DNA from: Catellatospora paridis
Lineage (GTDB): Bacteria > Actinomycetota > Actinomycetes > Mycobacteriales > Micromonosporaceae
NCBI RefSeq assembly: GCF_009720365.1
Contig: NZ_ML769313.1
Location: forward strand, 296,591 to 360,590
Length of the DNA: 64,000 nt
Reading direction: 5' to 3'
Both the position numbers and the translations under genes were made by a program. Below are positions 1-38,540 of the stretch, one piece after another; position 1 is the stretch's first letter, and each line of letters starts with the position of its first letter. Below the pieces are notes generated by a model that was not told the origin of the DNA, did not search any database, and worked only from the letters and a program-made list of their open reading frames with translations.

Positions 1-65
1 TTTTTTGGGGGTTGTCCCCCCCCCCCCCCCGGGCCCCCCCCCCCCCCGCGCCCCCCCCCCCCCCG
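1..65. repeat. Low-complexity poly-C/poly-G tract at window edge
   Basis: The first 65 bases are homopolymer runs of T, G and C with almost no other bases. Nothing codes here. A run like this at a contig end is more often a sequencing or assembly artefact than genuine sequence, so positions 1-65 should not be used for promoter or gene prediction. Confidence 0.8.
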
Positions 66-22708: not shown

Positions 22709-23695
22709 CTAGCGGCAGAACGGGACCTTGCCCATGGTGGACTGGATCCCGCCCAGGATCAGCTGCTGGAACTCGGCGGCCCCGGGGAAGGAGCCGTCGG
22801 TGGAAAACGAGCGGGCGTCGTGTCCCAGGGTGGTCAGGAACGCCCGTCCGCCGTCGTAGTACTGGCACCAGGCCACCGGGTGCACGTCGCCGTGGCCGGG
22901 GTGGCCCATCGAACCGGCGACGCCGCGCAGCATCGTCGACTCGTCCACGGCGGCCAGGATGCGCACGTCGGACGGGAACGGCACCAGGTTGTACCACTCG
23001 TCGGTGAAGGTCCAGGCCGCCGGAAGCCCGGCCGTGGCGGCGTCCCGGCGGCTGAGCGTCCGCACCGTCGCCGGCTGGTTGGGCCCGTGGTCGTAGTAGT
23101 TCGCCCCGCCGAGCAGGCCCTCGTACCAGGGCCAGTTGTACTCGGTGCCGAATGCGTTGTGGATGCCCACGAACCCGCCGCCGCCCCGGAGGTACTGGCG
23201 CAGCGCGGTCTGCGCGCCGTCGTCGAGGGTGTCCCGGGACGTGCTGAAGAAGATGATCGCGTTGTAGCCGAACAGCTGCCCGGCCGAGCCCAGCCGCGTG
23301 ACGTCCTCGGTGTAGTCGACGCCGAACCCGTTGTCCTGGCCCATCTTGATGATGGCGTGGTGGACGACGTTGGCCTCGGTCAGCGGCGGGTTCAGGCCCG
23401 CGGCCAGGGCCGGGCCGAGATTGGCGTGCCGCGGTCCGGCGGTACGCGTGTACAGCAGGACCTTGTGGCCGGCGGCCGGGTCGAAGTTGCCCCAGTCGTG
23501 ATAGCACCGCTCGTCGGTGCCGCGGCACACGCCGTAGTCCGGGTCGCCCAGCTGCTGGGCCCCCTTCGCCCGGCCCCGGTCGTCGTGTGCGGCGGACGGC
23601 AGGCCCGTCAGCGCCGCGAAGGCGAGGGTGGCCAGGACGCTGACCAGAGCCGTCAGGGCCACGGTCAGCCGGTTCTTCATCGGAAGTCTGCGCAC
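22709..23695 (-). CDS. Secreted ThuA-like (trehalose utilisation/glutamine amidotransferase-fold) protein
   Basis: 328 residues. The GTG at 23695 is chosen because AGGAGAGG lies 7 bases upstream; an ATG follows 5 codons later. A Sec signal peptide (LTVALTALVSVLATLAFAALTG) is followed by a short Cys-containing segment (YGVCRGTDERCYHDW), then a ThuA domain: 'KVLLYTRTAGPRHANLGPAL', 'YNAIIFFSTSRDTLDDGAQTALRQYLRGGGGFVGIHNAF', 'LLGGANYYDHGP' and 'HPVAWCQYYDGGRAFLTTLGHD'. ThuA domains occur in sugar-catabolic enzymes, but their reaction is largely undefined. It starts 20 bp after the quinoprotein gene, so the two are cotranscribed from a promoter with IclR-like sites. Confidence 0.88.
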   Translation of the reverse strand: MRRLPMKNRLTVALTALVSVLATLAFAALTGLPSAAHDDRGRAKGAQQLGDPDYGVCRGTDERCYHDWGNFDPAAGHKVLLYTRTAGPRHANLGPALAAGLNPPLTEANVVHHAIIKMGQDNGFGVDYTEDVTRLGSAGQLFGYNAIIFFSTSRDTLDDGAQTALRQYLRGGGGFVGIHNAFGTEYNWPWYEGLLGGANYYDHGPNQPATVRTLSRRDAATAGLPAAWTFTDEWYNLVPFPSDVRILAAVDESTMLRGVAGSMGHPGHGDVHPVAWCQYYDGGRAFLTTLGHDARSFSTDGSFPGAAEFQQLILGGIQSTMGKVPFCR

Positions 23696-23715
23696 GTCGT
23701 TGCCTCTCCTGGCGA

Positions 23716-25836
23716 TCAGTAGACCTCGACCTTGCCGGTCGGTCTGGGGCTGAACGAGTCGTTGAAGAAGTACTCGCCCTTGGCCGTGAAGGTGTACGAG
23801 AACGACTCGCCGGGCTGGAGCCTGATGTCGAACAGGCCCTCGAAGAACTGGGTGGCGCCGTGCACGTTCACGTTGTCGGCGGGGTTGACGAAGGTGACGG
23901 TCGTGCCGACCGGCACCCGCAGGTGCGTCGGGGCCATGGCGTTGACCGCGGTCGACTCGACGGTCCCCACGGTCCCGGTCGCGGGGTTGTAGATCCGTGC
24001 CAGAACCACGGTGTTGCCGACGGCGCTGCCCTCCACCGGACCGCCGGACACCGGCCGGCGTACGACCGGCGGGGGCGGTGCGGCAGCGGCGGCGACCGTT
24101 CCGCCGATCTTGAAAGCCCAGAGGTGGTCGCCGCGCGGGGCGGAGTTGCCGTAGGGGATGCCGGTGCCGCCGGCGTAGACCGCGAGGTACTGCTCGCCGT
24201 CGATCTCGTAGCTGATCGGGCTGCTGCTGATCGCGGCCCCGGTCTGAAAGCGCCACAGTTCGCGCCCGTTGCGGGCGTCGAGGGCCAGCAGGTTCCCGTC
24301 GGGTTGGCCGATGAACAGCAGGTCACCGGCGGTGGTGAGGATGCCGTTGCCGTGCGCCAGCGAGTACGGCAGGTGCTTCTTCCACCGCACCCGGTTGGTG
24401 GCGGGGTCGACGGCGACGACGCCGCCGGTCTGGTATTCGCCCGGCGGGCGCAGGCCGTTGCTGGCCTCGGTGAGCGAGTGCGCCGCGGCGACGTAGCCGT
24501 ATCCGGTGTAGACGAGGCCGGTGCTGTGGCTGAACGACTGGTGGCTCCAGTCGGCTCCGCCGCCGTGCCCCGGGATGGACAGGATCGGCACGTCCCAGTG
24601 CGGGTCGTACAGCGATCCCTGCACGTAGTTGGGGACGGCGCGGTTGGGGTCGCCCGGGATCGCGGTGCCCAGCGGCTGGTCGACGACCCGGGTCTCGGTC
24701 CAGGCCCCCTGCCGGGGGAACGGCTGGGTGGGCCAGGTCTTCTGCCGCGGCTCCTGCGGCACCGGGACCTCGTCGATGCCCAGGGGAGCGGAGCCGTCCT
24801 CGCGGTCGAGGATGAAGTACATGCCGGACTTGCTGCCGTACACGACGAGCTTGCGGTCACGGCCGCGGATTTTGGTGTCCACCAGGACCGGGGCCATGGT
24901 GTTGTCCATGTCCCAGATGCCGTGGTGGATCGACTGGAAGTGCCACCGGTACCGGCCGGTCTTCAGATCCATGGCGACGATCGAGCTGGAGAACAGGTTC
25001 AGGCCGCCGCGCTGCGAGCCGTCCTGGGAGGACCGGTTGCCGCGCGGGTTGCCGAAGGTCCAGTAGACCAGGCCCAGGTCGGGGTCGAGCGCGGGGTGCA
25101 TCCAGGGCGCCGCGCCGCCGTTCTGCCACGACGTGCCCTCCCACGTCTCGTTGCCGAACTCGCCCGGCTCGGGGGCGCCCCAGAAGTGCCAGACGACGTC
25201 GCCGTTGCGGGCGTCCAGGGCCAGTGCCGCGGCGCGGTCGCTGTCGTGGGTGCCGACGTAGAGGATGCCGTCGTAGTGGGTGACGGCGACCTTCTCCATG
25301 TTGCCGTACTCGCTGACCTGCCGCTCCCAGGCGACCGCGCCGGTCTCCTGGTCGAGTGCGATGATCCAGCTGCCGCGGCCGTGGGTGAACACCTTGCCGT
25401 CGCCGACCGCGACACCGCGGCGGGTCACCGTGCCGCGGGTCTGCCGATACACCCACTTCGTGACGCCGGTGGCGCCGTCGACGGCGAACACGTTGCCGAA
25501 CGCGGACTCGATGTAGAGCACGCCGTCGACGGCCACCGCGGTGCTCTGGTTGGTGCCTGTGTCGATGCCGCCTTCGATGCGGTTGAGCCATGCCCCGCCC
25601 AGGCGGTCGACAGTGCGCCGGTTGATCCGGTGCAGCGAGGTGTAGTTCTGGTTGCCGTAGTTGCCGCCGACCTTGGGGAAGTCGGCGGCACCCGGGGTCG
25701 TGCAGCGTGAGCCGCCGTGCCCGCCAGGTCGGCCCGCGGGTTCGGGTGCCGCGTCGGCGGCGGCCGGTGTCAGGGCCGCGCCGACGGCTGTCGCCGCTGC
25801 TCCGGTGAGTAATGCCCGACGTGGGATCTCTGCCAT
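23716..25836 (-). CDS. Secreted PQQ-type beta-propeller dehydrogenase with C-terminal cupredoxin-like domain
   Basis: 706 residues. Tat signal (RR at 6-7, 'IPRRALLTGAAATAVGAAL') cut near residue 30. Residues about 45-585 form a quinoprotein propeller with repeats such as 'GDVVWHFWG', 'RNGRELWRFQTG' and 'NGILTTAGDLLFIGQPDGNLLALDARNG', similar to PQQ glucose/alcohol/quinate-type dehydrogenases. After a Pro-rich linker, about 610-706 is a cupredoxin-like fold (LRVPVGTTVTFVNPADNVNVHGA...SYTFTAKGEYFF). The Cys ligand expected in a type-1 copper site is missing (EYFFNDSFS), so copper binding is doubtful. The ATG at 25836 has GAGGTC upstream. Substrate unknown; context suggests a polyol or quinate-like acid. 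Confidence 0.87.
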   Translation of the reverse strand: MAEIPRRALLTGAAATAVGAALTPAAADAAPEPAGRPGGHGGSRCTTPGAADFPKVGGNYGNQNYTSLHRINRRTVDRLGGAWLNRIEGGIDTGTNQSTAVAVDGVLYIESAFGNVFAVDGATGVTKWVYRQTRGTVTRRGVAVGDGKVFTHGRGSWIIALDQETGAVAWERQVSEYGNMEKVAVTHYDGILYVGTHDSDRAAALALDARNGDVVWHFWGAPEPGEFGNETWEGTSWQNGGAAPWMHPALDPDLGLVYWTFGNPRGNRSSQDGSQRGGLNLFSSSIVAMDLKTGRYRWHFQSIHHGIWDMDNTMAPVLVDTKIRGRDRKLVVYGSKSGMYFILDREDGSAPLGIDEVPVPQEPRQKTWPTQPFPRQGAWTETRVVDQPLGTAIPGDPNRAVPNYVQGSLYDPHWDVPILSIPGHGGGADWSHQSFSHSTGLVYTGYGYVAAAHSLTEASNGLRPPGEYQTGGVVAVDPATNRVRWKKHLPYSLAHGNGILTTAGDLLFIGQPDGNLLALDARNGRELWRFQTGAAISSSPISYEIDGEQYLAVYAGGTGIPYGNSAPRGDHLWAFKIGGTVAAAAAPPPPVVRRPVSGGPVEGSAVGNTVVLARIYNPATGTVGTVESTAVNAMAPTHLRVPVGTTVTFVNPADNVNVHGATQFFEGLFDIRLQPGESFSYTFTAKGEYFFNDSFSPRPTGKVEVY

Positions 25837-26028
25837 GCTGACCTCGTTCCTGTGCTGAAGGCGGTCTGTCTGCGGTGGCGCGTCCTGTGCGCTCGGGGCG
25901 GATCCGCATGCCGATGCGTGGCGACCGCGGGCAGGCGTGACCGGCTGCGCGATTGCGGCGGTCAGCGGGCTGGAAGCGTCGCGTGCAACGCGTTGTGCGT
26001 CAGCGAATCCGACTAACAATCATGAGGT

Positions 26029-26070
26029 CCACTAGGCGGTCCAAATAGGCCATCTAGAGGCACGGCTCAA
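26029..26070 (-). promoter_or_regulatory. Quinoprotein promoter with tandem IclR-type sites
   Basis: Minus-strand TTGAGC (26070-26065), 17 bases, TATTTG (26047-26042). Site C1 CCACTAGGCGG (26029-26039, centre 26034) covers the predicted start; site C2 CCATCTAGAGG (26050-26060, centre 26055) lies in the spacer. Centre distance 21 bp, identical to the two other pairs in the island. Confidence 0.55.
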
Positions 26071-26151
26071 TATATGACCGACCCCGCTGCGGCGCAAGGC
26101 GAGGTTTCCGGAATGTGTCGTCGCGGTCATTTGGGGCGGACACGGTGGCAC

Positions 26152-26175
26152 GCGACGGCCGGTGCCGGCCGTCGC
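26152..26175 (-). terminator. Terminator of the citrate-synthase-like gene
   Basis: Perfect 11-bp stem (26152-26162 with 26165-26175), almost no loop, 18 bases past the stop codon. Confidence 0.7.
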
Positions 26176-26192
26176 GGCGAGGACTGGACCGA

Positions 26193-26999
26193 TCAGTTCC
26201 CGAGGTAGGTCGGCAGGATCCCGGTTGGGATCGGACCCTTGTTGCGCCGGCCCTGCTGGGTCTCCTCCCAGGCGTGGGCCAGGATGCCGATGCTGCGGCT
26301 GAGCACGAACAGGCCGCGGGCCAGCGGGGCCGGGAAGCCGAGCTCGGCGTAGATGATCGCGGTCGCCCCGTCGATGTTCATCGGCACCGGCCGCCGGCCC
26401 GGTCGCTGTAGTGCCGCCTCCACGGCCCGGGCCGCGGTGGCGTGGCGGCCCTCGACCACGCCGTCGCGCACGGCGGCGTCGACCAGGCCCAGCAGGGGAT
26501 CGCGGCGGGGGTCGACGGGATGGAAGCGGTGCCCGAACCCGGGAACGTAGCGCGAGTGGGCGCGCCAGGCGGTCAGCGCGTCGCCGACCGCGGTGTCGAG
26601 ATCGGCGCCGGCGTCCTGGCGGGCGCAGATGTCGGTCAGCACCTCGACGCACTGTTGCCCCGCGCCGCCGTGCGAGTCGCCGAGCAGGTTGACACCGGTG
26701 GCGACCGCGTTGTTCAAACCGATGCCGCAGGTCGCGGCCATGCGTGCGGCGGCGATCGACGGTGCGTGCGGGCCGTGGTCGACCCCGGCGACGAGCGCGG
26801 CCTCCAGCAGCGCCGACTGCCGCCGGTCGGGCACGTCGCCGCGCAGCATCAACCAGATCATGTCGGTGAGGCCGGTGGTCCCGATCAGCTCCTGCACCGG
26901 GCGGCCGCGCAGCTCGATCACGCCGGGTGCCATCCGGGACACGGACGTGGCCCACCAGTCCGCGACCATTGCCGCGGTCGTGTCCTGCGTGGTGCTCAC
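26193..26999 (-). CDS. Short citrate-synthase-fold protein (citryl-CoA lyase-like)
   Basis: 268 residues, much shorter than a TCA-cycle citrate synthase (about 370-430). It keeps the core: 'GLTDMIWLMLRGDVPDRRQSALLEAALVAGVDHGPHAPSIAAARMAA', the glycine-rich 'GDSHGGAGQQC' (catalytic-His region), 'RYVPGFGHRFH' (second catalytic His) and 'RSIGILAHAWEETQQG'. Proteins of this size are known as citryl-CoA lyase-like, and cleave a citryl-type CoA thioester to acetyl-CoA and an oxoacid. The nearby CaiB/BaiF transferase could supply the thioester. GTG start at 26999 with GGAGG 6 bases before. Its promoter carries the tandem IclR-type sites. Confidence 0.85.
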   Translation of the reverse strand: MSTTQDTTAAMVADWWATSVSRMAPGVIELRGRPVQELIGTTGLTDMIWLMLRGDVPDRRQSALLEAALVAGVDHGPHAPSIAAARMAATCGIGLNNAVATGVNLLGDSHGGAGQQCVEVLTDICARQDAGADLDTAVGDALTAWRAHSRYVPGFGHRFHPVDPRRDPLLGLVDAAVRDGVVEGRHATAARAVEAALQRPGRRPVPMNIDGATAIIYAELGFPAPLARGLFVLSRSIGILAHAWEETQQGRRNKGPIPTGILPTYLGN

Positions 27000-27057
27000 G
27001 TCGCCTCCAGTGGTGTCCGGACTGACTGTTCGACCATCGCCGAACCTACCGTGCAGT

Positions 27058-27089
27058 CCGTAGAGCGGGCTAGTAGGTCCGCTGTACGG
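27058..27089. promoter_or_regulatory. Tandem IclR-type sites, citrate-synthase-like gene
   Basis: A1 CCGTAGAGCGG (27058-27068, centre 27063) and A2 CCGCTGTACGG (27079-27089, centre 27084), 21 bp apart. The 15-mer CAGTCCGTAGAGCGG at 27054-27068 occurs again, unchanged, at 30429-30443. The pair lies 59-90 bases upstream of the GTG at 26999; a -35/-10 pair is not clear. Confidence 0.55.
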
Positions 27090-27279
27090 ATTTCTGTCCG
27101 AAATCCCATGTCCCGTGGTGCACATTGCTCACGTCGCCCGCCCGCATCACGCGAGCCGGCCTGCGAATCCTCTGGACCGGACGGTGCCGCCCGCTCGAGA
27201 GCGGGTCGCAGCTCTTGACTTCGCCCACCGCCGTACAGCTAATTAACGTACTAGCTCGTATAACAAGCGGGGAGGCCCG

Positions 27280-28164
27280 GTGGCCCGAGGACGACGCTTT
27301 CTGGTGGGGCTCATCGGTGGCGACCTCGGGCCGTCGCTCAGCCCCGCGCTGCACGAGCGGGAGGCCGACGAGCTGGGCGTGCGCTACCTGTACCAGCTCC
27401 TCGACCTCGACGTGCTCGACCTGGGCGCGGAGGACGTCGGCGCGCTCGTCGCGCAGGCGGGGCAGTTCGGGTTCGCCGGCCTCAACATCACGCACCCCTC
27501 GAAGCAGGCGGTGGTGAAGTATCTCCCCGAGCTCTCCGCCGACGCCGCGGCATTGGGCGCGGTGAACACCGTGGTGTTCCGGCAGGGACGGGCGGTCGGG
27601 CACAACACGGACTGGTCGGGCTTCCTCACCGGGTTCCGGCGCGGACTGCCCGGCGCGGCGGTCGGCGACGTCGTGCTGCTGGGCGCCGGGGGAGCGGGCA
27701 CCGCCGTCGCGTTCGCGCTCGTACGCCTCGGTGTGCGGCAGCTGACCGTGGTGGACCTGGCGGTGGAACGCGCCGAACAGCTCGCCGAGGTGGTGCGCCG
27801 GGCCGCCGCGGCGGACCGGCCCGTGACCGTCCGGACGACCCGCACGGTGGACGAGATCCGCGATCGGCTGGCCGCGGCGGACGGCCTGGTCAACGCCACA
27901 CCCGTGGGCATGAGCGGGGACGGGGCGACGCCGCTGCCGGCCGGGCTGTTCCGCCCGGAGATGTGGGTCGCCGACATCGTCTACCGGCCGCTGCTGACGG
28001 AACTGCTGCGCCAGGCGCGCGCCGCCGGCTGCCGGACCCTGGACGGCGGCGGCATGGTCGTGGCTCAGGCCGCTGAGACGTTCCACCTGATCACCGGGCT
28101 GTCGCCCGACCTCGAGCGGATGTACCGGCACTTCTCATCCCTCACCGCCGCGGCGACGTCGTGA
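27280..28164 (+). CDS. Shikimate/quinate dehydrogenase (AroE/QsuD-like)
   Basis: 294 residues. Substrate site: 'SLSPALHERE' (about 16-25), 'GLNITHPSKQAV' with the catalytic Lys, and 'HNTDWSGF' with the catalytic Asp. Cofactor site: GAGGAGTAVAFAL followed by 'LTVVDLAVERAEQL': an Asp after the second strand, and no Arg, favours NAD over NADP, as in catabolic quinate/shikimate dehydrogenases. It ends with 'GGGMVVAQAAETF'. GTG start at 27280 with GGGGAGG 5 bases before. It interconverts quinate or shikimate with the 3-dehydro forms; a dehydroshikimate dehydratase-like gene lies at 38640-41423, which supports a catabolic role. Confidence 0.92.
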   Translation: MARGRRFLVGLIGGDLGPSLSPALHEREADELGVRYLYQLLDLDVLDLGAEDVGALVAQAGQFGFAGLNITHPSKQAVVKYLPELSADAAALGAVNTVVFRQGRAVGHNTDWSGFLTGFRRGLPGAAVGDVVLLGAGGAGTAVAFALVRLGVRQLTVVDLAVERAEQLAEVVRRAAAADRPVTVRTTRTVDEIRDRLAAADGLVNATPVGMSGDGATPLPAGLFRPEMWVADIVYRPLLTELLRQARAAGCRTLDGGGMVVAQAAETFHLITGLSPDLERMYRHFSSLTAAATS

Positions 28165-28188
28165 CGGAGAGGGGGAGCCGACCGTATG

Positions 28189-29373
28189 TCAGGACCCGGG
28201 CTTGCGCCAGCGGCGGGTGATCTCCGGAAGCTCGTCGTTGTGCTCGCCGAGCAGCGGCGGCGCGCCCACCGGATGCATCGGCTCGCCGTCGACGAGCACG
28301 CCCGTGCCGCTCAGGCGCAGCCGCCGGTCGGTGGCCGGGCCGGGGAAGCGCACGTCGGCGAAGAACCGGCGGTGGGCCAGCTGGTCCAGCTCGACGGCCT
28401 GCGGGACGGTCAGGATCCGGGCGGCGGGCACGCCTACCCGGTTGAGCTCCTGTTCCCAGACCAGTGCCGGACGCGCCCGCAGGGCGTCGTCGAGTTCGGC
28501 GTTGAGCGCGTCCCGGTGCTCCTTGCGCTGCTCCCGGGTGGCGAAGCGCGGGTCGGTGACCAGATCCGGCCGGCCCACGCAGCGGCACAGGCTCTCGAAC
28601 TGCTCCTGCCGGTTGGCCGCGATGTTGAGCGGGCCGTCGGCGGCGTGGAAGGTGCCCGACGGGGCGGCGGTCGGGTTCTGGTTGCCCATCGGCTGTGGGG
28701 GCACCCCGCCGACCAGGTGGTTGGAGACCGCCCAGCCCATCGCGGAGACGGACGCCTCCAGCATGGACACGTCCAGGAAGGAGCCGCGGCCGTGGCGCTC
28801 CCGGCCGGCGATGGCGGCCGTGACGGCCAAGGCCGCGGTGAGCCCGCCCAGCGAGTCACTGATGGGGAAACCGACCCGCAGCGGCGCGGTGTCCTGCGTG
28901 CCGGTGATGCTCATCATCCCGGAGAGCCCCTGGATGACCTGGTCGTATGCGGGAGCCTGGCTCATCGGCCCGCTCTGCCCGAAGCCGCTGATCGCGCAGT
29001 AGACCAGCCGCGGGTTCAGCTCTCGCAGGCGCTCCCAGGAGAAGCCGATCCGGGCCAGCACCCCGGCCCGGAAGTTCTCCACCAGCACGTCCGCGGCCGT
29101 GACCAGGTCCACGAAGGCGGCCCGGTCGTCGTCGTCCTTGAGGTCGAGCTCCACCGACTTCTTGCCCGCGTTCTGGGCCAGGAACGAGGCGCCCAGGGCG
29201 GCGTCGTTGAGTTCGGGATCGGGGCCGAGCCGGCGGGCCAGGTCCCCGACGCCGGGGATCTCCACCTTGAGGACCTCCGCGCCGAGCAGGGCCAGCTGAT
29301 ACGTGCAGTATGGCCCGGCGAGCACGTTGGTCAGGTCGAGCACGCGGATGCCGGCGAGCGGTCGATGCGCCAT
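28189..29373 (-). CDS. CaiB/BaiF (family III) CoA-transferase
   Basis: 394 residues, typical size for formyl-CoA transferase-like enzymes. N-terminal 'LAGIRVLDLTNVLAGPYCTYQLALLGAEVLKVE', 'NAGKKSVELDLK', 'DVLVENFRAGVLARIG' and 'GFGQSGPMSQAPAYDQVIQGLSGMMSITG', where the Asp in 'PAYDQ' is the catalytic residue that forms the acyl-aspartyl intermediate. It moves CoA between carboxylic acids in the cytoplasm. Downstream of the IclR gene (54 bp) and probably cotranscribed with it. With the citryl-CoA lyase-like protein it would give an activate-then-cleave route for a tricarboxylic or similar acid. GAGGAG precedes the ATG. Confidence 0.93.
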   Translation of the reverse strand: MAHRPLAGIRVLDLTNVLAGPYCTYQLALLGAEVLKVEIPGVGDLARRLGPDPELNDAALGASFLAQNAGKKSVELDLKDDDDRAAFVDLVTAADVLVENFRAGVLARIGFSWERLRELNPRLVYCAISGFGQSGPMSQAPAYDQVIQGLSGMMSITGTQDTAPLRVGFPISDSLGGLTAALAVTAAIAGRERHGRGSFLDVSMLEASVSAMGWAVSNHLVGGVPPQPMGNQNPTAAPSGTFHAADGPLNIAANRQEQFESLCRCVGRPDLVTDPRFATREQRKEHRDALNAELDDALRARPALVWEQELNRVGVPAARILTVPQAVELDQLAHRRFFADVRFPGPATDRRLRLSGTGVLVDGEPMHPVGAPPLLGEHNDELPEITRRWRKPGS

Positions 29374-29427
29374 GCAGGGTCTCCTCGGGTGGGCTGGCTG
29401 ACGCGGGGCATGTCGGCGCGGCGCGGC

Positions 29428-30273
29428 CTAGCGGGACGTGCCGAGCGGGTGGTCGAAGCCGCGCTCGGACACCTGCTGCGCCATCCGCCTGACCTCCGCC
29501 GCGAACTCGGCGACCCGGGCCTCGGTGAACCGCAGCGTGGGCCCGCTGAGACTGAGTGCGGCCACGACCGCGCCGGAGCGGCCCAGGATCGGGGCGGCCA
29601 CCGCCGACAGGCCCTCGTCGCGTTCGCCGTGGCTGACGGCGTATCCGGCGACGGTGGCCTCGTCGATCCACTCCTGCAGCCGCTTGACGTGACCGGGCCC
29701 GTAGGGCGAGCTGCGGGCGACGCGTGCCAGCAGCGCCGGGCTCGCGTCGCGCAGCAGCACCTTGGCCGTGGCGCCGGCCCAGAGCGGGAGCTCGTCGCCG
29801 ACGTGCACGACGTGGCGAAGCGCCTGCGGGCTCTCCTGCTGGGCGATGCAGACCCGGAAGACGTCGCGGGCGACGTAGACGTTGACCGTCTCGCGCATGC
29901 GCGATGCGAGCTCGCGCATGCCGCGCTGGGTCTCGGGCGGCAGCTCCCAGCTGCTGTGCGCCAGGTGCGCCCAGCGCCACAGGCCGGGTCCGGCCATGTA
30001 GCCGCTCGCGGTGGCCCAGAGCAGGCCGCTCTGCTCCAGTGTCGAGACCAGACGGATCACCGTGGTCTTCGCCAGGCCGGTGGCCTCGGTGATCTCGCGG
30101 ACCGTCACGGTCGGCTGTTCGGCGGTGAGCAGCGTGAGGATGTCCAGCGCCCGCTGGACGCTGCGCACCCCCTGCTGGTCGCCGCCGTCGGCGGGCGGCT
30201 GCGGTGCCGCGGGCTCGTCCTGCGCGGTTCGCTGCCGTCCGGCCGCCCTGTCATGTCCCGTTGCCGCCGCCAC
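29428..30273 (-). CDS. IclR-family transcriptional regulator
   Basis: 281 residues. Winged HTH at about 40-95 ('GVRSVQRALDILTLLTAEQPTVTVREITEATGLAKTTVIRLVSTLEQSGLL'), then the GAF-like effector domain ('VNVYVARDVFRVCIAQQESPQALRHVVHVGDELPLWAGATAKVLL', 'GYAVSHGERDEGLSAVAAPILGRSGAVVAALSLSGP'). GTG start at 30273 with GAGGAAC upstream; the longer ATG-initiated frame adds a basic tail that lacks family similarity. Divergent from the aldehyde dehydrogenase operon. I propose that it binds the 21-bp-spaced palindrome pairs at 26029-26060, 27058-27089 and 30433-30464, one of which is in its own intergenic region. Confidence 0.92.
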   Translation of the reverse strand: MAAATGHDRAAGRQRTAQDEPAAPQPPADGGDQQGVRSVQRALDILTLLTAEQPTVTVREITEATGLAKTTVIRLVSTLEQSGLLWATASGYMAGPGLWRWAHLAHSSWELPPETQRGMRELASRMRETVNVYVARDVFRVCIAQQESPQALRHVVHVGDELPLWAGATAKVLLRDASPALLARVARSSPYGPGHVKRLQEWIDEATVAGYAVSHGERDEGLSAVAAPILGRSGAVVAALSLSGPTLRFTEARVAEFAAEVRRMAQQVSERGFDHPLGTSR

Positions 30274-30394
30274 GGTTCCTCGCTTTCGTCGTGTCCACAT
30301 CGATGGCCTGCGGATGAGCATCCCATCACGAGTCTCGATGACCTGCGGGCCTGGTGGTGCATTCACGCGTCCGTAACGTTCTGGACTCGACCCC

Positions 30395-30423
30395 TTGCTA
30401 GATCCAGCGGACGCCCGTACGTT
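30395..30423 (+). promoter_or_regulatory. Promoter of the aldehyde dehydrogenase operon
   Basis: TTGCTA (30395-30400), 17 bases, TACGTT (30418-30423). Start predicted at about 30430, next to IclR-type site B1. Confidence 0.6.
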
Positions 30424-30432
30424 ACACCCAGT

Positions 30433-30464
30433 CCGTAGAGCGGTCCAGTAGAACCACAGAGTGG
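30433..30464. promoter_or_regulatory. Tandem IclR-type sites, aldehyde dehydrogenase operon
   Basis: B1 CCGTAGAGCGG (30433-30443, centre 30438) and B2 CCACAGAGTGG (30454-30464, centre 30459, perfectly symmetric arms), 21 bp apart. Both are followed by TCC. They cover the predicted transcription start and the leader, ending 19 bases before the GTG at 30483. Confidence 0.6.
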
Positions 30465-30482
30465 TCCACGAAGGAGGATCCG

Positions 30483-31961
30483 GTGCTCGATGCCATGCTC
30501 AAGCCGGACGCTGACGCCGTGCATACGGCAGCAAATCTGGTGGCCGGGAGCTGGGTCGTGGATGGACCTTGTGAGCAGCGCGTGGGACCGTACGTCCGCA
30601 GAGTGGTCAGCCGAGCGCCGGTCACCGCACCGGGCGATGTGGACGCGGTTGCCGCATACGCGCGCGACGCCGCCCGACACATGGCCCGGCTGGCTCCGGC
30701 GGCCCGCGCGGACGTGCTCGACGCGGCAGGACGGCTGGCCCAGGCCCACCGCGCCGAGTTCGCCCGCGTGATCGCGCTGGAGCTCGGCAAACCGCTGCGC
30801 GACGGGCTGGGCGAGATGGACCGGGTGGCCGACACCTTCACGGTCTGCGCCGCCGAGGCCCGCCAGATCGGCGGCGAGGTGCTGCCGGTCGCGGGCTGGC
30901 GACGGGGGATCGGCAACACCGCGCTCACCTACCGCGCCCCGGCGGGCGTGGCACTGGCGATCACGCCGTTCAACGCCCCGGCCAACCTGCTCGCGCACAA
31001 ACTCGGCGCGTCCTTCGCGGCGGGCAACACCACCATCGTCAAGGCCCCGCCGCAGGCGCCCGCGGTCTCCGCGGCCGTGGTGGCGCTGCTGCTCGAGGCC
31101 GGCGCGCCCGAGCAGGCGGTGCAGCTGCTGCACGGCGGCGGCGACGTCGGCGCGGCGCTGTGCGCGCTCACCGAGGTCAGCGTCGTGAGCTTCACCGGCA
31201 GCGCCGCGACCGGGGCCGCCGTGGCCCGCGCCGCGGGAGCCAAGCGCCTCGTCCTGGAACTGGGCGGCAACGCCGCCACCATCGTGTGCGAGGACGCCGA
31301 CATCGCCGCGGCCGCCCGGGTCTGCGCCCGCACCGGCTACACCAACTCCGGCCAGAGCTGCATCTCGGTGCAGCGGGTGTACGTGCACCGCGACCGCTAC
31401 GCGCAGTTCCTCGAAGCGCTCACCGCCGAGGTCGAGACGCTGGTCGTCGGCGACCCGCTCGACCCGGCCACCGACGTCGGCTCCATGGTCGACGAAGCCG
31501 CCGCCGAGCGCGTCGTGTCCTGGGCCGCGCAAGCCGTCGCGGGCGGAGCGTCGATCACGACCGGCGGCCGCCGCGACGGCGCGACCGTGTACCCCACCGT
31601 GGTGGCCGCCCCGCCCGCCGACGCCTTCGTCGTGGTGCACGAGGTCTTCGGGGCGCTGGTGGCCGTGCTGCCCTATGACGACTTCGACGCCGTGCTCGCC
31701 ACCTGCAACGACAGCCGCTACGGCCTGCAGGCCGGGCTGTTCACCCGCGACCTGGGGCGGGCGCTCACGGCATGGCGCGAGCTGGAGGTCGGTGGGCTCG
31801 TGGTGAACGGATCCTCCAACTTTCGCCTAGACCACGTGCCCTTCGGCGGGGTGAAGGACTCCGGCTTCGGCCGCGAGTCGCCCCGTCTGATGATCGAGGA
31901 CTTCACCACGGTGAAGACCATGCTGCTGCGCGGCATGTCGATCTGGGGTGAGCACGGGTGA
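30483..31961 (+). CDS. NAD(P)-dependent aldehyde dehydrogenase
   Basis: 492 residues, standard ALDH superfamily. 'GVALAITPFNAPANLLAHKLGASFAAGNTTIVKAPPQAP' (cofactor region), 'SFTGSAATGAAVARAAG', 'LVLELGGNAATIV' with the general-base Glu, and 'YTNSGQSCISVQRVYVH' with the catalytic Cys; 'HEVFGALVAVLPYDDFDAVLATCNDSRYGLQAGLF' near the end. Oxidises an aldehyde to an acid or acyl-CoA; the substrate cannot be read. GTG start with AAGGAGG 5 bases upstream. First gene of the operon that continues with the ThDP enzyme and perhaps the branched-chain-type importer. Confidence 0.93.
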   Translation: MLDAMLKPDADAVHTAANLVAGSWVVDGPCEQRVGPYVRRVVSRAPVTAPGDVDAVAAYARDAARHMARLAPAARADVLDAAGRLAQAHRAEFARVIALELGKPLRDGLGEMDRVADTFTVCAAEARQIGGEVLPVAGWRRGIGNTALTYRAPAGVALAITPFNAPANLLAHKLGASFAAGNTTIVKAPPQAPAVSAAVVALLLEAGAPEQAVQLLHGGGDVGAALCALTEVSVVSFTGSAATGAAVARAAGAKRLVLELGGNAATIVCEDADIAAAARVCARTGYTNSGQSCISVQRVYVHRDRYAQFLEALTAEVETLVVGDPLDPATDVGSMVDEAAAERVVSWAAQAVAGGASITTGGRRDGATVYPTVVAAPPADAFVVVHEVFGALVAVLPYDDFDAVLATCNDSRYGLQAGLFTRDLGRALTAWRELEVGGLVVNGSSNFRLDHVPFGGVKDSGFGRESPRLMIEDFTTVKTMLLRGMSIWGEHG

Positions 31962-31993: not shown

Positions 31994-33778
31994 ATGAGCA
32001 CAGACACCCAGGCCCGCGCGCTGCCCGCCGACGACGTCGCGCGCGGCACCGGCGCCCTCGCCATGGCCCGGCAGCTCCAGGCGTACGGCGTCGAGTACGT
32101 GTTCGGCACCTGCGGCCATACCAACATCGCGCTGCTGGCCGCGTTCGACGAGGTCGGCATCGAGTTCGTGATCGCGCGGCACGAGCAGGCCGCCGCGCAC
32201 GCCGCCGACGGATACGCCCGGGTGTCCGGCAAGGCCGGCGTGCTGCTGGTGCACGTCGGCCCCGGCATGATGAACGCCGTCACCGGGGTGGCCACCGCCG
32301 CGCTGGACTCGGTGCCGCTCGTGACGATCGCCGGGGACGTGCCGTCCTACCTGCACGGCAGGCACCCGCACCAAGAGGTCAACCTGCACGCCGACGCCGA
32401 CCAGACGGCGATCTTCCGGCCGTTCGTCAAGCGCGCCTGGCACGCGCACCGGGTCGAGGACCTGCCGCGCTTCACCGAGCGCGCGTTCTGGACCGCGACC
32501 TCCGGCCGCCCCGGCGCGGTGCTGCTCAACGTCCCGATGGACCTGTTCTCCCGGCCGCTGGCCGACCACCACACCGACCGGCACCCGCTGCCCGCGCAGA
32601 CGACGGCCCCCGGGCTCCCGGCGGACGACGCGGCACGCATCGCCCGTGAGCTGGTGTCGGCGCGGCAGCCGCTCATCTACCTCGGCGGCGGCCTGGGCCC
32701 CGGCGCCGGGCGTGCGGCACTGCTCACGCTCGCCGAGCACCTCGACATCCCCATCGCGCACTCGCTGATGGCCAAGGGCGCGGTCCCCGACGAGCACCCG
32801 CTGCTGCTGGGCATGCCCGGCTTCTGGGGCACCGAGAGCACCAACGGCTACGCGCTGAGCGCCGACGTGGTGCTCGCCATCGGCACCCGCTTCGCCGAGA
32901 CCGACGCCAGCTCCTGGGATCCCGCCTACACCTGGCGCTTCCCGCCGTCGCGGCTCATCCAGATCGACATCGACCCGGCGGAGATCGGGCGCAACTACCC
33001 GGTCGAGATCGGCGTCGTGGCCGACGCGACCCTGGCCGTGCAGGCGATCACCGGGCAGGTGCTCGACCAGTTGCCGCAGGGCCGGTCGCGGCCCGACCTG
33101 CGCGCCGACATCGCGGCCGCCCGCTCGGCGCTGTTCGCCGGAAGCGCGGAACGCGGGCGCAGCGACCAGTTCCCGCTACGCCCCGAGCGCATCCTCGCCG
33201 ACGTGCGGGCGGCACTGCCGTCCGACGCGATCCTGGTGACCGACGTCGGCTGGAACAAGAACGGGGTGGCGCAGTGCTACCCGCTGCCCGCCGACGGCCG
33301 CTTCATCACCCCAGGCGGCGCGTCGACCATGGGCTTCGGCCCGGCCGCCGCGCTGGGCGTGCAGCTGGCCGCGCCGGACAAGGTCGTGGTCGCGCTCATC
33401 GGCGACGGGGGGATGAGCGCCCAGCTGCCCGCGCTGCCGATGGCGGTCGAACGCGGCCTGCCGGTGATCTTCCTGGTGATGAACAACCGCGCCCACGGCA
33501 CCATCGCCGACCTGCAGGCGGCCAACTTCGGCCGCAGTTACGGCTGCGAGTTCCGCGACCCCGACGGCAACCCCTACAGCCCCGACTTCGCCGCGCTCGG
33601 CCGGGCCTGCGGGGCCGACGGATACGACATCGCGCAGCCGGCGGACCTCGTAGCCGCGCTGCGCACGGCAGTGCAGCGCCGCCGACCGGCGGTCCTGGAC
33701 GTGCCCATGGTCAACGAGCCGGTGCCGACCCCGGGGCACTGGAACATCAAGGACATCTACCACGGCGTATTCGAGTGA
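31994..33778 (+). CDS. Thiamine-diphosphate enzyme (acetolactate synthase-like, AHAS/POX family)
   Basis: 594 residues with the three ThDP-family domains. N-terminal Pyr domain with catalytic Glu in 'RHEQAAAHAADGYAR'; a central domain ending near 'RLIQIDIDPAEIGRNYPVEIGVVAD'; a C-terminal PP domain with 'GDGGMSAQLPALPMAVERGL...NNRAHG', the metal-ThDP motif (GDG, about 25 residues, NN). The FAD-binding-like central region may be vestigial. It belongs with acetolactate synthase-like enzymes of unassigned substrate that decarboxylate or ligate 2-oxoacids. ATG at 31994 with GAGGAG upstream; an alternative GTG overlaps the ALDH stop. Not the biosynthetic IlvB: no small subunit and it sits in a catabolic operon. 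Confidence 0.9.
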   Translation: MSTDTQARALPADDVARGTGALAMARQLQAYGVEYVFGTCGHTNIALLAAFDEVGIEFVIARHEQAAAHAADGYARVSGKAGVLLVHVGPGMMNAVTGVATAALDSVPLVTIAGDVPSYLHGRHPHQEVNLHADADQTAIFRPFVKRAWHAHRVEDLPRFTERAFWTATSGRPGAVLLNVPMDLFSRPLADHHTDRHPLPAQTTAPGLPADDAARIARELVSARQPLIYLGGGLGPGAGRAALLTLAEHLDIPIAHSLMAKGAVPDEHPLLLGMPGFWGTESTNGYALSADVVLAIGTRFAETDASSWDPAYTWRFPPSRLIQIDIDPAEIGRNYPVEIGVVADATLAVQAITGQVLDQLPQGRSRPDLRADIAAARSALFAGSAERGRSDQFPLRPERILADVRAALPSDAILVTDVGWNKNGVAQCYPLPADGRFITPGGASTMGFGPAAALGVQLAAPDKVVVALIGDGGMSAQLPALPMAVERGLPVIFLVMNNRAHGTIADLQAANFGRSYGCEFRDPDGNPYSPDFAALGRACGADGYDIAQPADLVAALRTAVQRRRPAVLDVPMVNEPVPTPGHWNIKDIYHGVFE

Positions 33779-33873
33779 AACAGCACGTCGACACAGGGTG
33801 CGAGCCGCGCGGCCCGCACCCGACCAGGTAACGCATCCCGTCTCCGTTCCTCCCCACAACAGAGGTGATGTGC

Positions 33874-35028
33874 ATGTTCTCGTCCCTGCGGCGCCACGCC
33901 GCCGTCATGCTCCTCGGACTCGCCCTTCCGGTCGCCCTCGCGGCCTGCTCCGCACCCGGCGGTGACCAGGGCGACACGAACAAGACCGACGGTCCGATCA
34001 AGATCGCGCTCGTGGACGCGCAGAGCGGGCAGCTCAGCTCGCTGGGCGCCTGGGAGCTCAAGGGCGCCCGCCTGGCGATCGACGAGTGGAACGCGGCCGG
34101 CGGCATCAACGGCCGCCAGATCGAGCTCGGCGTCTTCGACGACCAGGGTGACCCGACCGTCGGCACCAACCTGGCCCGGAAGATCGCCAGCGAGGGCTAC
34201 ATCGCGATGATCGGCACGGCCGAGAGCGCGGTCACCATCGCGATGGCCCCGATCCTGCGCGAATCCAAGATCCCGAACATCACGTCCGGCCAGTCGCCCG
34301 GCCTGGTCGCGGTGAAGAGCCCGTTCCTGTTCCTCAACGGCCCCACCAGCGTCACCTACGACGAGACCCTCGCCAAGTACATCGTGGACGGCAAGGGGCT
34401 CAAGAACATCGCGATGATCACCAACAACGGCGGCTACGGCAAGGGCGAGCACGACGCGTTCACCAAGTCGCTGCAGGCCCGCGGCGTGAAGCCGATCGAG
34501 GACCAGGTCGTCACCGCCGACCAGAAGGACTTCAGCGCCGCGCTGACCACGATCCGGCAGAAGAATCCGCAGGTCATCTTCATCGGCGCGGAGGAAGTCC
34601 AGTCCGGCCTGATCGTCAAGCAGGCCCGCGACCTCGGCATCACCGTGCCGTTCGCCGGCGCGGCGCCGCAGGGCACCCCGGTCTTCGCCGACACGGCCGG
34701 CACGGCCAACGTCGAGGGCACCATCGTCAGCTCGCCCTACCTGAGCAACGAGGTCAGCGAGGCGTCGAAGAAGTTCGCCGCGGCATACAAGGCGAAGTTC
34801 AACGAGGACGCCGAGATGCACGGCGCGAAGGCGTACGACGGCACACAGATCCTGCTCAACGCGCTGAAGACCAGCAACGTCGCCACGGGACAGGCGCTGG
34901 CCGACGCGATCCGCGCGACCAAGTACGCCGGCCTGCTGGGCGACTTCGCCTTCGACGACACCGGCGTGGGCATCTTCGCCACCAGGATCGGCACGATCCA
35001 GGCCGGCAAGCTGGTCGCCGCCGGCTGA
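33874..35028 (+). CDS. Branched-chain-amino-acid-type ABC transporter binding lipoprotein
   Basis: 384 residues of the Peripla_BP_6 (LivJ/K-like) family. Signal with lipobox 'VALAACSAP', lipidated Cys about residue 26. 'IALVDAQSGQLSSLGAWELKGARLAIDEWNAAGGINGRQIELGVFDDQGDP' is the family start; 'KIPNITSGQSPGL' and 'AKAYDGTQILLNALK' follow. Such proteins often import aromatic or small organic acids and not only amino acids, which suits this island. In-frame starts are GTG 33865, ATG 33868 and ATG 33874; the last has AGAGG at 8 bases. Followed by a hairpin, then permease and ATPase genes. Confidence 0.92.
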   Translation: MFSSLRRHAAVMLLGLALPVALAACSAPGGDQGDTNKTDGPIKIALVDAQSGQLSSLGAWELKGARLAIDEWNAAGGINGRQIELGVFDDQGDPTVGTNLARKIASEGYIAMIGTAESAVTIAMAPILRESKIPNITSGQSPGLVAVKSPFLFLNGPTSVTYDETLAKYIVDGKGLKNIAMITNNGGYGKGEHDAFTKSLQARGVKPIEDQVVTADQKDFSAALTTIRQKNPQVIFIGAEEVQSGLIVKQARDLGITVPFAGAAPQGTPVFADTAGTANVEGTIVSSPYLSNEVSEASKKFAAAYKAKFNEDAEMHGAKAYDGTQILLNALKTSNVATGQALADAIRATKYAGLLGDFAFDDTGVGIFATRIGTIQAGKLVAAG

Positions 35029-35037
35029 TGACCACCC

Positions 35038-35081
35038 GAGCGGTCGCCGCAGGCGGGTCACCCCGCCCGCGGCGGCCGCTC
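35038..35081 (+). terminator. Stem-loop between binding-protein gene and livH
   Basis: 20-bp stem with two mismatches (35038-35057 with 35062-35081) and a 4-base loop. Likely attenuates transcription so that binding protein exceeds permease. Confidence 0.65.
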
Positions 35082-35113
35082 CCGTTCCCCTCGCTCTGCG
35101 CACAGGGAGTGCC

Positions 35114-35983
35114 ATGCAGGTCTTTCTTCAAACGTTCATCGGCGGGATGAGCCTCGGCGCGATCTACGCACTCGTGGCGCTCGGCTTCTCGCTCGTCTTC
35201 CGCACGATGGGCCTGGTCAACTTCTCGCACGGCAACGTCGTCATGATCGGCGCGTACCTCGCCTCGACGTTCTACCTCTCCACGAAGCTGCCCTTCGCAC
35301 TGGCCATGGCGCTGGCGATCGGCGGCACCGGGCTGATCGGCGTGATCATCGAGCGGGTGCTGCGCCCGCTGGAGAACAAGGACTTCGACCTCATGCTGAT
35401 CGGCACCATCGGGTTCGGCATCGTGCTCGAAGCCGTCGCGATCATCATCTGGGGTGCGACCGGCAACGCCGTGCCCAACCCGGTGCCCACCGGCCCGCTG
35501 GAGGTGCTCGGGCTGCGCATCCGTACATACGACCTGGTGGTGCTCGCGATCGCGGCCGCCGCCGCCGTGCTGCTGGTCTTCTTCCTGCAGTCCACCAAAC
35601 GCGGCGCGGCCATGCAGGCCGTCGCGATGGACCACGAGGCGGCCACCGCCGTCGGCATCCACGTCGGACGCAGCAACGCGATCGCCTTCATGCTCGGCGC
35701 GGGCCTGGCCGCGCTGGCCGGCGGCCTGGTCGGCCCGCTGCTCTACGTCAACCCCACCATGGGCGGCGCGCTGGGCATCAAGGGCTTCGCCGCCGCGATC
35801 CTGGGCGGCTTCGGCAGCATTCCCGGCGCGATCGTCGGCGGCTTCGCGATCGGCGTGCTGGACGCGTTCACCGCGGGCCACTTCCAGGGCTACTCGGAGC
35901 TGGTCACCTTCCTGGTCTTCACGGTGATCATCATGATCCGGCCCACCGGAATCTTCGGCGAGAGGACGGTGAACCGCGCATGA
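35114..35983 (+). CDS. livH: Branched-chain-type ABC permease LivH
   Basis: 289 residues, about eight membrane spans. Family landmarks: 'GGMSLGAIYALVALGFSLVFRTMGLVNFSHGNVVMIGAYLA' at the N-terminus, 'QAVAMDHEAATAVGIHVGRSNAIAFMLGAGLAALAGGLVGPL' as the cytoplasmic docking loop, and 'GFAAAILGGFGSIPGAIVGGFAIGVLDA'. GGGAG before the ATG. Overlaps the next gene by ATGA. Inner-membrane channel subunit. Confidence 0.95.
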   Translation: MQVFLQTFIGGMSLGAIYALVALGFSLVFRTMGLVNFSHGNVVMIGAYLASTFYLSTKLPFALAMALAIGGTGLIGVIIERVLRPLENKDFDLMLIGTIGFGIVLEAVAIIIWGATGNAVPNPVPTGPLEVLGLRIRTYDLVVLAIAAAAAVLLVFFLQSTKRGAAMQAVAMDHEAATAVGIHVGRSNAIAFMLGAGLAALAGGLVGPLLYVNPTMGGALGIKGFAAAILGGFGSIPGAIVGGFAIGVLDAFTAGHFQGYSELVTFLVFTVIIMIRPTGIFGERTVNRA

Positions 35984-37793
35984 AGCTGCGCGTCGCCGGT
36001 ATCGGCGTGCTGGCGGTCCTCGCCTGGCTGCTGCCCTATCAGCTCGACTCCTACCTGATCCACGTCGCGAACGTGGTCATCCTGTTCGCCATCCTCGCGA
36101 TCGGCCTCGGCCTGGTCATGGGCATCGCCGGGCAGATCAACCTGGCCCAGGTCGCGCTGTTCGGCGTGGCCTCCTACGCCACGGCCATCCTGACCACCCG
36201 GGCCGGCTTCGGGTTCTGGACGGCCGCCGCACTGGCCATGCTCATCGTCGCCGCCATCGGGCTGCTGATCGGCACCCCGGCGCTGCGTATGCAGTCGCAC
36301 TACCTCGGCATCGTCACCCTCGGCCTCGCCCTGGCCCTGACCAACTGGGTCACCAACGCCCACATCGCCGGTGGCGCGGAGGGCATCACCGGCATCCCCG
36401 CCCCGACGCTGCCCGGCATCGACCTGCGCAACGACTACTTCTTCTACTACCTCGAGCTCGTCGTGTTCGCCCTCGCGCTGGCCTTCGGCCTGTTCGTGGT
36501 GCGCACGCCGCTCGGGCGCAAGATGCGCGCGATGCGCGACGACTCCCTCGCGGCCGGCGCGGTCGGGGTGGAGGTGCCGCAGCTGCGCATGACGGCGTTC
36601 TTCCTGGCCAGCCTCTACGGCGGCGTCGCGGGTGTGCTGTATGCGGGCCTCATCCGCTACGTGGCGCCGGAGACGTTCAGCATCGCCAACATGTTCCTGC
36701 TGCTCGCCATGGTGATCATCGGGGGGCGGCAGAGCCTGGTCGGCTGTGTCGTCGGCGCGGTCGCGCTGTCCCTGCTGCGCGAGGTGCTCGTGGACTACCC
36801 GACGTACGCGCAGGTGGCCTACGGCACCATCGTGGTGCTGACCGTCGTGTTCGCCCCCACCGGCCTGGCCGGACTGCCCGTCCGCGCCCGCGGGCTGCTG
36901 CAACGTCTCGGCTGGCTGCGCCGCGACACCGGCGCGCCACCGAAACTCGGCGACTTCCGGCCGTACGACGCGGTCGAGCGCCCGGCCGAGCAGGTGATCC
37001 TGCGCATCGACGACGTGAGCATGCACTTCCGCGGCCTGAAGGCCCTGCAGGAGGTGACCATGGAGATCAGCACCGGGGAGATCCGCGGCATCGTCGGCCC
37101 GAACGGCTCCGGCAAGACCACACTGTTCAACGTGGTCAGCGGGCTCTACCGGCCCACCTCGGGCCGGGTCTGGCTGGGGGAGCAGGATATGACCGCCGCC
37201 CGCCCGCACACCCTGGCCCGCGCCGGCATCGCCCGCACCTTCCAGAACCTGCGCCTGTTCCCGCTGCTCACCGTGCGAGAGAACCTGCTCGTGGCACTCG
37301 ACCAGACCTCCGTGCTCGGCAGCTGGCGGTACGCGCTGTGGCAGCCGGGCGTGTGGCGCCAGGACCGGGCCCTGCGCCGACAGGCCGACGAACTGCTCGA
37401 CCGTTTCGGCCTCACCGCGTTCGCCGACGCGGCACCCGGCGAGCTGCCCTACGGCACCCAGCGGCGGGTCGAGATCGCCCGCGCCATGGCCCGCAGTCCG
37501 CGCCTGCTGCTGCTCGACGAACCCGCCGCCGGTCTCAACGGCGAGGAGGTCCGCCAGCTCAGCGAGATCGTGCGGTCGATCCGCGCGGCCGGGGTCACCG
37601 TCGTGCTCATCGAGCACAACATGGGCCTGGTCATGTCGCTGTGCGAGCGGGTCACCGTCTTCGCCAGCGGCCGCGTCATCGCCGACGGCACACCGGCCGA
37701 GGTGGCCCGCGCGCCACAGGTGGTCGAGGCATACCTCGGCGACTCCGCCATGTCCTCCGACGTGCCGGTCGCCACCGCGACGGAGGCAGCGTG

Positions 37794-37794
<1 letters not shown>
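35980..37794 (+). CDS. LivM-LivG fusion: ABC permease joined to ATPase
   Basis: 604 residues. Residues about 1-310 are a LivM permease ('ILAIGLGLVMGIAGQINLAQVALFGVASYATAIL', 'RAMRDDSLAAGAVGVEVPQLRMTAF', 'GGRQSLVGCVVGAVALSLLREVL'). A linker (about 311-340, with 'RARGLLQRLGWLRRDTG') leads to a LivG ATPase, about 345-600: Walker A GPNGSGKT, signature 'ELPYGTQRRVEIARAMA' (LPYG for LSYG), Walker B 'LLLLDEPAAGLN' and switch His in 'LIEHNMG'. The fusion fixes the stoichiometry of these two subunits. ATGA overlap with livH and a 1-base TGATG overlap with livF. Confidence 0.95.

Positions 37795-38540
<746 letters not shown>

Follow-up and report, generated by a model that had tools for sequence, protein, structure and literature searches.

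The closest described counterparts of the system considered here are tandem operators of the IclR family. The text of a survey by Suvorova and Gelfand (2021, PMC8222616) gives GKTYCRYW3-4RYGRAMC as the consensus for group 1 of these regulators, places most site centres 20-80 nt ahead of the gene start, and describes 94 orthologous groups whose tandem sites are separated by 18-22 nt, mostly 19-21, a spacing from which it argues for tetramers; three- and four-turn spacings are also enriched in the family. The targets in that text are catabolic, one set being tied to quinate/shikimate metabolism. Here we consider a comparable arrangement in Catellatospora paridis, within 64,000 nt of contig NZ_ML769313.1 (positions 296,591 to 360,590; hereafter the window), where three pairs of palindromes stand at the promoters of an aldehyde dehydrogenase (ALDH) gene and a divergent IclR-family gene (29428-30273), a gene for a citryl-CoA-lyase-like enzyme (CitL), and a quinoprotein gene. 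The pairs are real and lie far beyond chance. They are very probably tandem operators of that IclR-family protein, which would repress the regulon, a reading supported at the level of sequence by motif, spacing, promoter layout, conservation, genome-wide ranking and co-occurrence.

In the proposed mechanism, each 15-bp palindrome would bind one IclR dimer, and two dimers, separated by two turns of the helix and facing the same side of the DNA, would act jointly as a tetramer. For ALDH and the quinoprotein, the predicted start just past the -10 element lies under the pair, so that occupancy would mean repression. Repressed targets would comprise the ALDH gene with those for a thiamine diphosphate (ThDP)-dependent enzyme and a branched-chain-type (Liv) transporter (aldh-thdp-liv), the quinoprotein and ThuA genes, citL and, through the shared divergent region, the regulator's own operon with a CoA-transferase (CoAT) gene (iclR-coaT). 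The repressor would be released by an inducer, for which a carboxylic acid imported by the transporter is the probable candidate.

Palindrome pairs, their spacing and their conservation

The six palindrome centres named in an earlier note on this DNA (26034/26055, 27063/27084 and 30438/30459) are all correctly placed. The sites, which have no assigned strand, and the predicted promoters are as follows, with scores on the motif described below.

30431 to 30445 (centre 30438): operator site 1 of the IclR/ALDH divergent promoter, GTCCGTAGAGCGGTC; 17.4 bits, identical in three Catellatospora
30452 to 30466 (centre 30459): operator site 2 of the IclR/ALDH promoter, AACCACAGAGTGGTC; 17.6 bits, identical in three Catellatospora
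27056 to 27070 (centre 27063): CitL promoter operator site; 11.2 bits (C. sichuanensis 12.0)
27077 to 27091 (centre 27084): CitL promoter operator site; 16.8 bits (C. sichuanensis 18.0)
26027 to 26041 (centre 26034): strong operator site, quinoprotein promoter; 16.0 bits (C. sichuanensis 15.6)
26048 to 26062 (centre 26055): weak or variant promoter-proximal site, quinoprotein promoter; -3.3 bits (unchanged in C. sichuanensis)
30594 to 30608 (centre 30601): further site inside the ALDH reading frame; 18.1 bits (12.4 in two congeners)
30395 to 30423, plus strand: predicted ALDH promoter; -35 TTGCTA at 30395-30400, 17 bp, -10 TACGTT at 30418-30423
26069 to 26097, minus strand: predicted quinoprotein promoter; -35 TTGCGC at 26097-26092, 17 bp, -10 TATATT at 26074-26069

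Within the window the 15-mer CAGTCCGTAGAGCGG has exactly two copies, at 27054 and 30429; the opposite strand has none. The strict pattern CC[GA][TC]NNN[GA][CT]GG, which the note had ascribed to all three pairs, describes those at 27063/27084 and 30438/30459; it does not describe the pair at 26034/26055, since site 26055 (CCATCTAGAGG) fails the pattern. With 57 matches in the window, below the 67.6 expected in shuffles, single strict sites carry no meaning. Spacing is the informative feature: only two pairs of strict matches stand at 21 bp, against a mean of 0.085 and a maximum of 1 over 200 dinucleotide-shuffled copies of the window, and the motif likewise finds 2 such pairs in the window versus none in 200 shuffles. 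Further window sites at 18108 (14.7 bits) and 41724 (13.1 bits) are single, and have no match in the congener loci, which probably end short of both; the remaining sites of 8-11 bits are also single.

The motif itself, the 15-mer palindrome G(T/A)CC-RYWNWRY-GG(T/A)C, came from expectation maximisation without spacing information; its input was the 68 unique sequences among 90 IclR/ALDH intergenic regions. Among sites of at least 6 bits in these training regions, and at distances below 90 bp, the commonest separation is 21 bp (52 pairs), followed by 32 (9) and 31 (7), with at most 4 pairs for any other. A wider sample was provided by 80 named loci (L105-L184), kept from 143 relatives found in a genome scan: here the 21-bp spacing accounts for 121 pairs in 68 loci, next to 15 pairs at 31/32 bp, 8 at 12 bp, 2 at 20 bp, none at 22 bp and at most 5 at any remaining distance up to 70 bp, while 20 column-permuted palindromic motifs yielded just 0-2 pairs each. 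Nearly all 21-bp pairs (120 of 123, the window's 2 included) lie no more than 300 bp from the start of a cluster gene, and the density of sites of at least 10 bits is 3.53/kb upstream of cluster genes, 0.112/kb in the bodies of these genes and 0.146/kb elsewhere.

Counts by gene in the named loci, for upstream sites of at least 8 bits, are given below; the ALDH and IclR regions are partly those used in training, the remaining promoters played no part in it, and divergent neighbours share sites. SDH, SBP, LivH and LivMG denote the shikimate dehydrogenase-like enzyme, the Liv-type binding protein and further Liv transporter genes.

ALDH: site in 72/72; 21-bp pair in 56; only a 31/32-bp pair in 14; neither in 2
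IclR: site in 74/80; 21-bp pair in 58; only a 31/32-bp pair in 14
ThuA: site in 23/54; 21-bp pair in 19
Quinoprotein: site in 20/46; 21-bp pair in 17
CoAT: site in 24/72; 21-bp pair in 11
CitL: site in 9/69; 21-bp pair in 9
SDH: site in 5/30; 21-bp pair in 1
ThDP enzyme: site in 9/73; 21-bp pair in 0
SBP, LivH and LivMG: sites in 1/60, 1/60 and 3/112; no pairs

The earlier note had held that the proposed regulon would be refuted if close relatives keeping the genes had lost the pairs; within Catellatospora the pairs survive. Two other species of the genus keep both the IclR/ALDH pair (2/2) and the CitL pair (2/2), the former invariant across all three species, the latter present in C. vulcania and, in C. 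sichuanensis, altered in ways that stay within the motif. The one congener with the quinoprotein gene, C. sichuanensis, keeps the strong site at that promoter and has an identical weak partner. IclR-free congeners are uninformative for motif loss because the cluster is all-or-none within the genus: among its 11 genomes, the IclR orthologue and CitL occur in the same 3, and the quinoprotein in 2 of those.

The whole C. paridis genome (8.97 Mb) was searched with a leave-genus-out profile of 44 columns built from 56 pairs of other genera, and 150 of 4013 first-look candidates were scored. Ranks 1 to 3 are the three promoters discussed here, at 30449 (E 4.3e-7), 27073 (E 0.003) and 26040 (E 0.066), the last of which is not significant alone. 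Rank 4 (E 0.215) lies under a 727-codon open frame. Open frames, of 304-1009 codons, cover all six of the next-ranked places examined; in G+C-rich DNA such frames count for little as evidence.

Proposed repression and competing explanations

The claim that two pairs overlap predicted transcription starts holds as a prediction: the pair at 30431-30466 starts 7 bp past its -10 TACGTT, and that at 26062-26027 (minus strand, the 26055 site first) starts 6 bp past its -10 TATATT. Of the 68 unique regions upstream of ALDH that contain a site, 56 show TTGnnn-16..18-TAnnnT with the site 6-9 bp past the -10, and sites placed just after the -10 suggest a repressor geometry at ALDH. Quinoprotein genes show a peak of TTGnnn/TAnnnT at 2 bp before the site. 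A simple sigma-70 scan found no promoter at these places.

The main rival to repression is activation, in which the IclR protein would bind the pairs but work mainly as an inducer-dependent activator in the manner of PcaU/PobR. The protein does match the PcaR/PcaU/PobR subfamily model TIGR02431, weakly (109.6 bits; cut-off 284.75), and at CitL no -10 was found before the site, so that the pair could sit upstream of the start there. An activator would however be expected further upstream than the position which the ALDH sites occupy relative to their -10-like element, and the window's quinoprotein promoter shows the same order of -10 and then site; activation is, on this balance, unlikely.

A lower probability still attaches to the idea that the sites serve some other regulator, such as a different IclR-family protein or the TetR-like protein at 41553-42221. 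Eight IclR-family matches exist in the C. paridis genome, and similar motifs are common to IclR proteins of different groups according to the survey text (PMC8222616); yet three of the others, among the matches listed, are 30-32% identical, the motif corresponds to that of IclR group 1 as given in that text, and 74 of the 80 named loci have sites at the promoter of iclR itself. Co-occurrence argues in the same direction. Across 354 genomes of the family, with the best few candidates per genome scored in both searches, an IclR orthologue (E <= 1e-50) was found in 56, and an ALDH orthologue (E <= 1e-170) in 50, all of them among those 56 when the tables were compared by eye; six genomes have the IclR match without an ALDH orthologue, and the reverse was never met. 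Chance features of G+C-rich DNA, which the unremarkable number of single strict matches might suggest, are a very unlikely explanation in view of the pairs, their conservation and the whole-genome ranking.

Repression by the neighbouring IclR protein is the preferred reading, and several results weigh against it. Some concern independence of the evidence: the regions on which the motif was trained include three Catellatospora, the window's own among these, and a first genome-wide profile of 60 pairs held 2 from the window and 2 from congeners, which is why the leave-out profile was built. That first profile gave best E values near 4e-7 in the three IclR-bearing genomes (C. paridis and two congeners) versus 0.0013 to 0.81 in the eight IclR-free congeners. 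Two strong profile matches in IclR-free congeners (L223, L226) were treated as chance because the first falls under a 523-aa frame and the second over a ribosomal protein-like frame, as judged by eye.

Others concern the sites. Site 26055 scores below zero on the family-derived general motif. Because its minus-strand form, TGCCTCTAGATGGCC, resembles proximal ThuA/quinoprotein sites that start with a similar CCTCT in some relatives (L115, L131, L151, L165, L166), it may be a variant proximal site, as these few cases suggest. A pair of its own is rare at CitL (9/69) and absent at ThDP, SBP, LivH and LivMG; such pair-free starts fit an organisation in operons and do not prove it. The TTGnnn/TAnnnT element 3-12 bp before the site was found at no CitL (0/10) or quinoprotein (0/25) promoter, and at just 6/38 ThuA and 1/78 IclR promoters. 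Six of the 80 named IclR genes have no upstream site (L118, L173, L174, L175, L180, L181). In five of these loci, L118, L173, L174, L175 and L180, no other cluster gene was found (that of L180 spans just 4.6 kb, which leaves this negative little weight), L118 has a pair downstream of iclR and ahead of a QuiC-like frame, and in L181 a pair at 9940-9983 falls just within the estimated IclR start. The IclR proteins of L173, L174, L175 and L180, from three Nonomuraea and one [Actinomadura] parvosata, are paralogues 62-65% identical.

Spacing is a further point. That every pair stands 21 bp apart is true of most ALDH promoters (56/72) and does not hold as a rule of the orthologous group, where 14/72 are spaced by 31/32 bp and 2/72 have no pair. 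The wider IclR/ALDH promoters, at three turns, belong to Actinoplanes, Paractinoplanes, Amorphoplanes and Winogradskya loci (L116, L117, L119-L121, L123-L125, L127, L129-L131, L144), of which L116, L123 and L125 nonetheless keep the 21-bp spacing at CitL and ThuA. A single regulator would, on this view, recognise operators of either spacing, two turns or three. A near-palindrome stands near +20 in 7 of 16 such promoters, some of them closely related, versus 22 of 1270 random GTCC positions, and may be a decayed 21-bp site. This natural shift from two to three turns within one orthologous group offers a ready test of IclR tetramer flexibility.

Gene content and a possible catabolic route

The genes at the locus, with the profile evidence for each, are as follows.

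22709 to 23761, minus strand: ThuA-domain protein (PF06283)
23716 to 25836, minus strand: quinoprotein, pyrroloquinoline quinone (PQQ) beta-propeller (PF01011)
26193 to 27002, minus strand: citryl-CoA-lyase-like enzyme, CitL (NF004864, over cut-off)
27280 to 28164, plus strand: shikimate dehydrogenase-like enzyme, SDH (profile match; closest solved structure quinate/shikimate dehydrogenase 3jyo)
28189 to 29373, minus strand: CoA-transferase family III, CoAT (PF02515)
29428 to 30273, minus strand: IclR-family regulator, HTH_IclR and IclR_C (profile matches)
30483 to 31961, plus strand: aldehyde dehydrogenase, ALDH (PF00171)
31994 to 33778, plus strand: ThDP-dependent enzyme, acetolactate-synthase-like (profile matches)
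33865 to 38540, plus strand: branched-chain-type (Liv) ABC transporter genes (binding protein by profile, the rest from reading frames)
33865 to 35028, plus strand: Liv-type binding protein, SBP, first gene of the transporter set (profile match)
38640 to 41423, minus strand: QuiC/QsuB-like 3-dehydroshikimate dehydratase fusion, 927 aa, past the Liv genes (profile matches)
41553 to 42221, plus strand: TetR-like gene, divergent from the QuiC-like fusion (by eye)

Both domains of the IclR protein exceed their cut-offs (PF09339, 48.9 bits; PF01614, 100 bits), and its best solved-structure match is 2o0y (E 6e-53); it scores 123.1 bits on the BhcR equivalog NF045644, below the cut-off of 350, and no relative was found in viral contigs. 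The ThDP enzyme is under the cut-off of every NCBIfam model among the 25 listed of 55. The C-terminal part of the quinoprotein (23716-23950) resembles a cupredoxin domain as judged by eye, and a radical SAM/SPASM protein with a PqqD domain (L117:15807-17213), whose family occurs in 9 named loci, is possibly cofactor-related. In the ALDH genes, a site of at least 8 bits lies at +30..+260 in 22 of 73, and the in-frame site at 30594-30608 is possibly an auxiliary operator. The 27063/27084 pair could also regulate SDH.

In the named loci IclR and ALDH are divergent neighbours in 61/80, the ThDP gene follows ALDH in 71/80, the complete order CitL-CoAT-IclR / ALDH-ThDP-SBP-LivH is found in 47/80, and an iclR-coaT-citL operon is predicted from gene order in 50/80, the window having iclR-coaT. 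ThuA, quinoprotein and SDH vary in position and direction, and the pairs stay with the ALDH, IclR, ThuA, quinoprotein and CitL-like genes despite these rearrangements. The locus occurs in Catellatospora, Actinoplanes, other Micromonosporaceae, Actinomadura, Nonomuraea, Streptomyces, Amycolatopsis and more. A QuiC-like dehydratase fusion is present in 32/80, some cut by the locus end; six such frames have an upstream site (nine were counted, those of L105, L106 and L113 being start-estimate artefacts past the locus end), and in the window no IclR pair was found at the start of the fusion.

The predicted regulon would join ALDH, the ThDP enzyme, a transporter, the CoA-transferase, the citryl-CoA-lyase-like enzyme, the quinoprotein and ThuA, with quinate/shikimate-type genes alongside, in a small network for organic-acid breakdown that is most likely under the neighbouring IclR protein. 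A TRAP-type permease, present in 12 named loci (L107, L111-L113, L122, L133, L134, L137, L140, L143, L152, L153), all among the 20 without a visible Liv gene, seems to replace the Liv transporter in the same regulon, a hint of a carboxylate substrate. Enzyme families suggest a possible stepwise route for 2-substituted malates: the transporter would import the acid, the CoA-transferase would form its CoA thioester, the citryl-CoA-lyase-like enzyme would release acetyl-CoA and leave a 2-oxo acid, the ThDP enzyme would decarboxylate this to an aldehyde, and ALDH would oxidise the aldehyde. An undescribed route of this kind for 2-substituted malic (citrate-like) acids, tied to quinate/shikimate-type catabolism and with one regulator reading both spacings, is a tentative proposal, and we regard it as doubtful in its entirety. 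A set of vaguely annotated enzymes becomes one testable regulon in many actinomycete genera, and the 44-column profile locates its promoters in a whole genome, narrowing the search for substrate and inducer.

Comparison with described systems

Gene-set precedents were sought in two ways: a literature search for this combination returned no paper, and the survey text, supplementary tables aside, does not mention the orthologous group or gene set by name (PMC8222616). The regulatory layout is the more familiar part. As far as the survey text describes group 1, the motif here fits the consensus, the 21-bp spacing falls inside the 18-22 range, and the pair centres, ~34 nt ahead of the ALDH start and 71 nt ahead of the CitL start, fall inside 20-80 nt; the half-site G(T/A)CCR is however C-rich, and the palindrome admits bases other than A/T at its centre. 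CatR of Rhodococcus erythropolis (palindrome GTACGCAGAGCGTAC) and PobR/PcaU of Acinetobacter (PobR palindrome TTGTCCGATSATCGGACAR) are likewise IclR-family regulators of aromatic-acid catabolism with related palindromes in that text (PMC8222616), but their half-sites and enzymes differ from those of the window's regulon and, in contrast to the sites here, those of PcaU and PobR include a further direct half-site. On the enzyme side, the QuiC/QsuB-type dehydratase and the dehydrogenase 3jyo have homologues in the window (38640-41423 and 27280-28164) and in relatives' loci, although the window's QuiC-like protein falls short of the curated cut-off (553.1 versus 1200 bits). The design of a regulator with tandem sites is thus already known, while the content of the regulon appears to be new.

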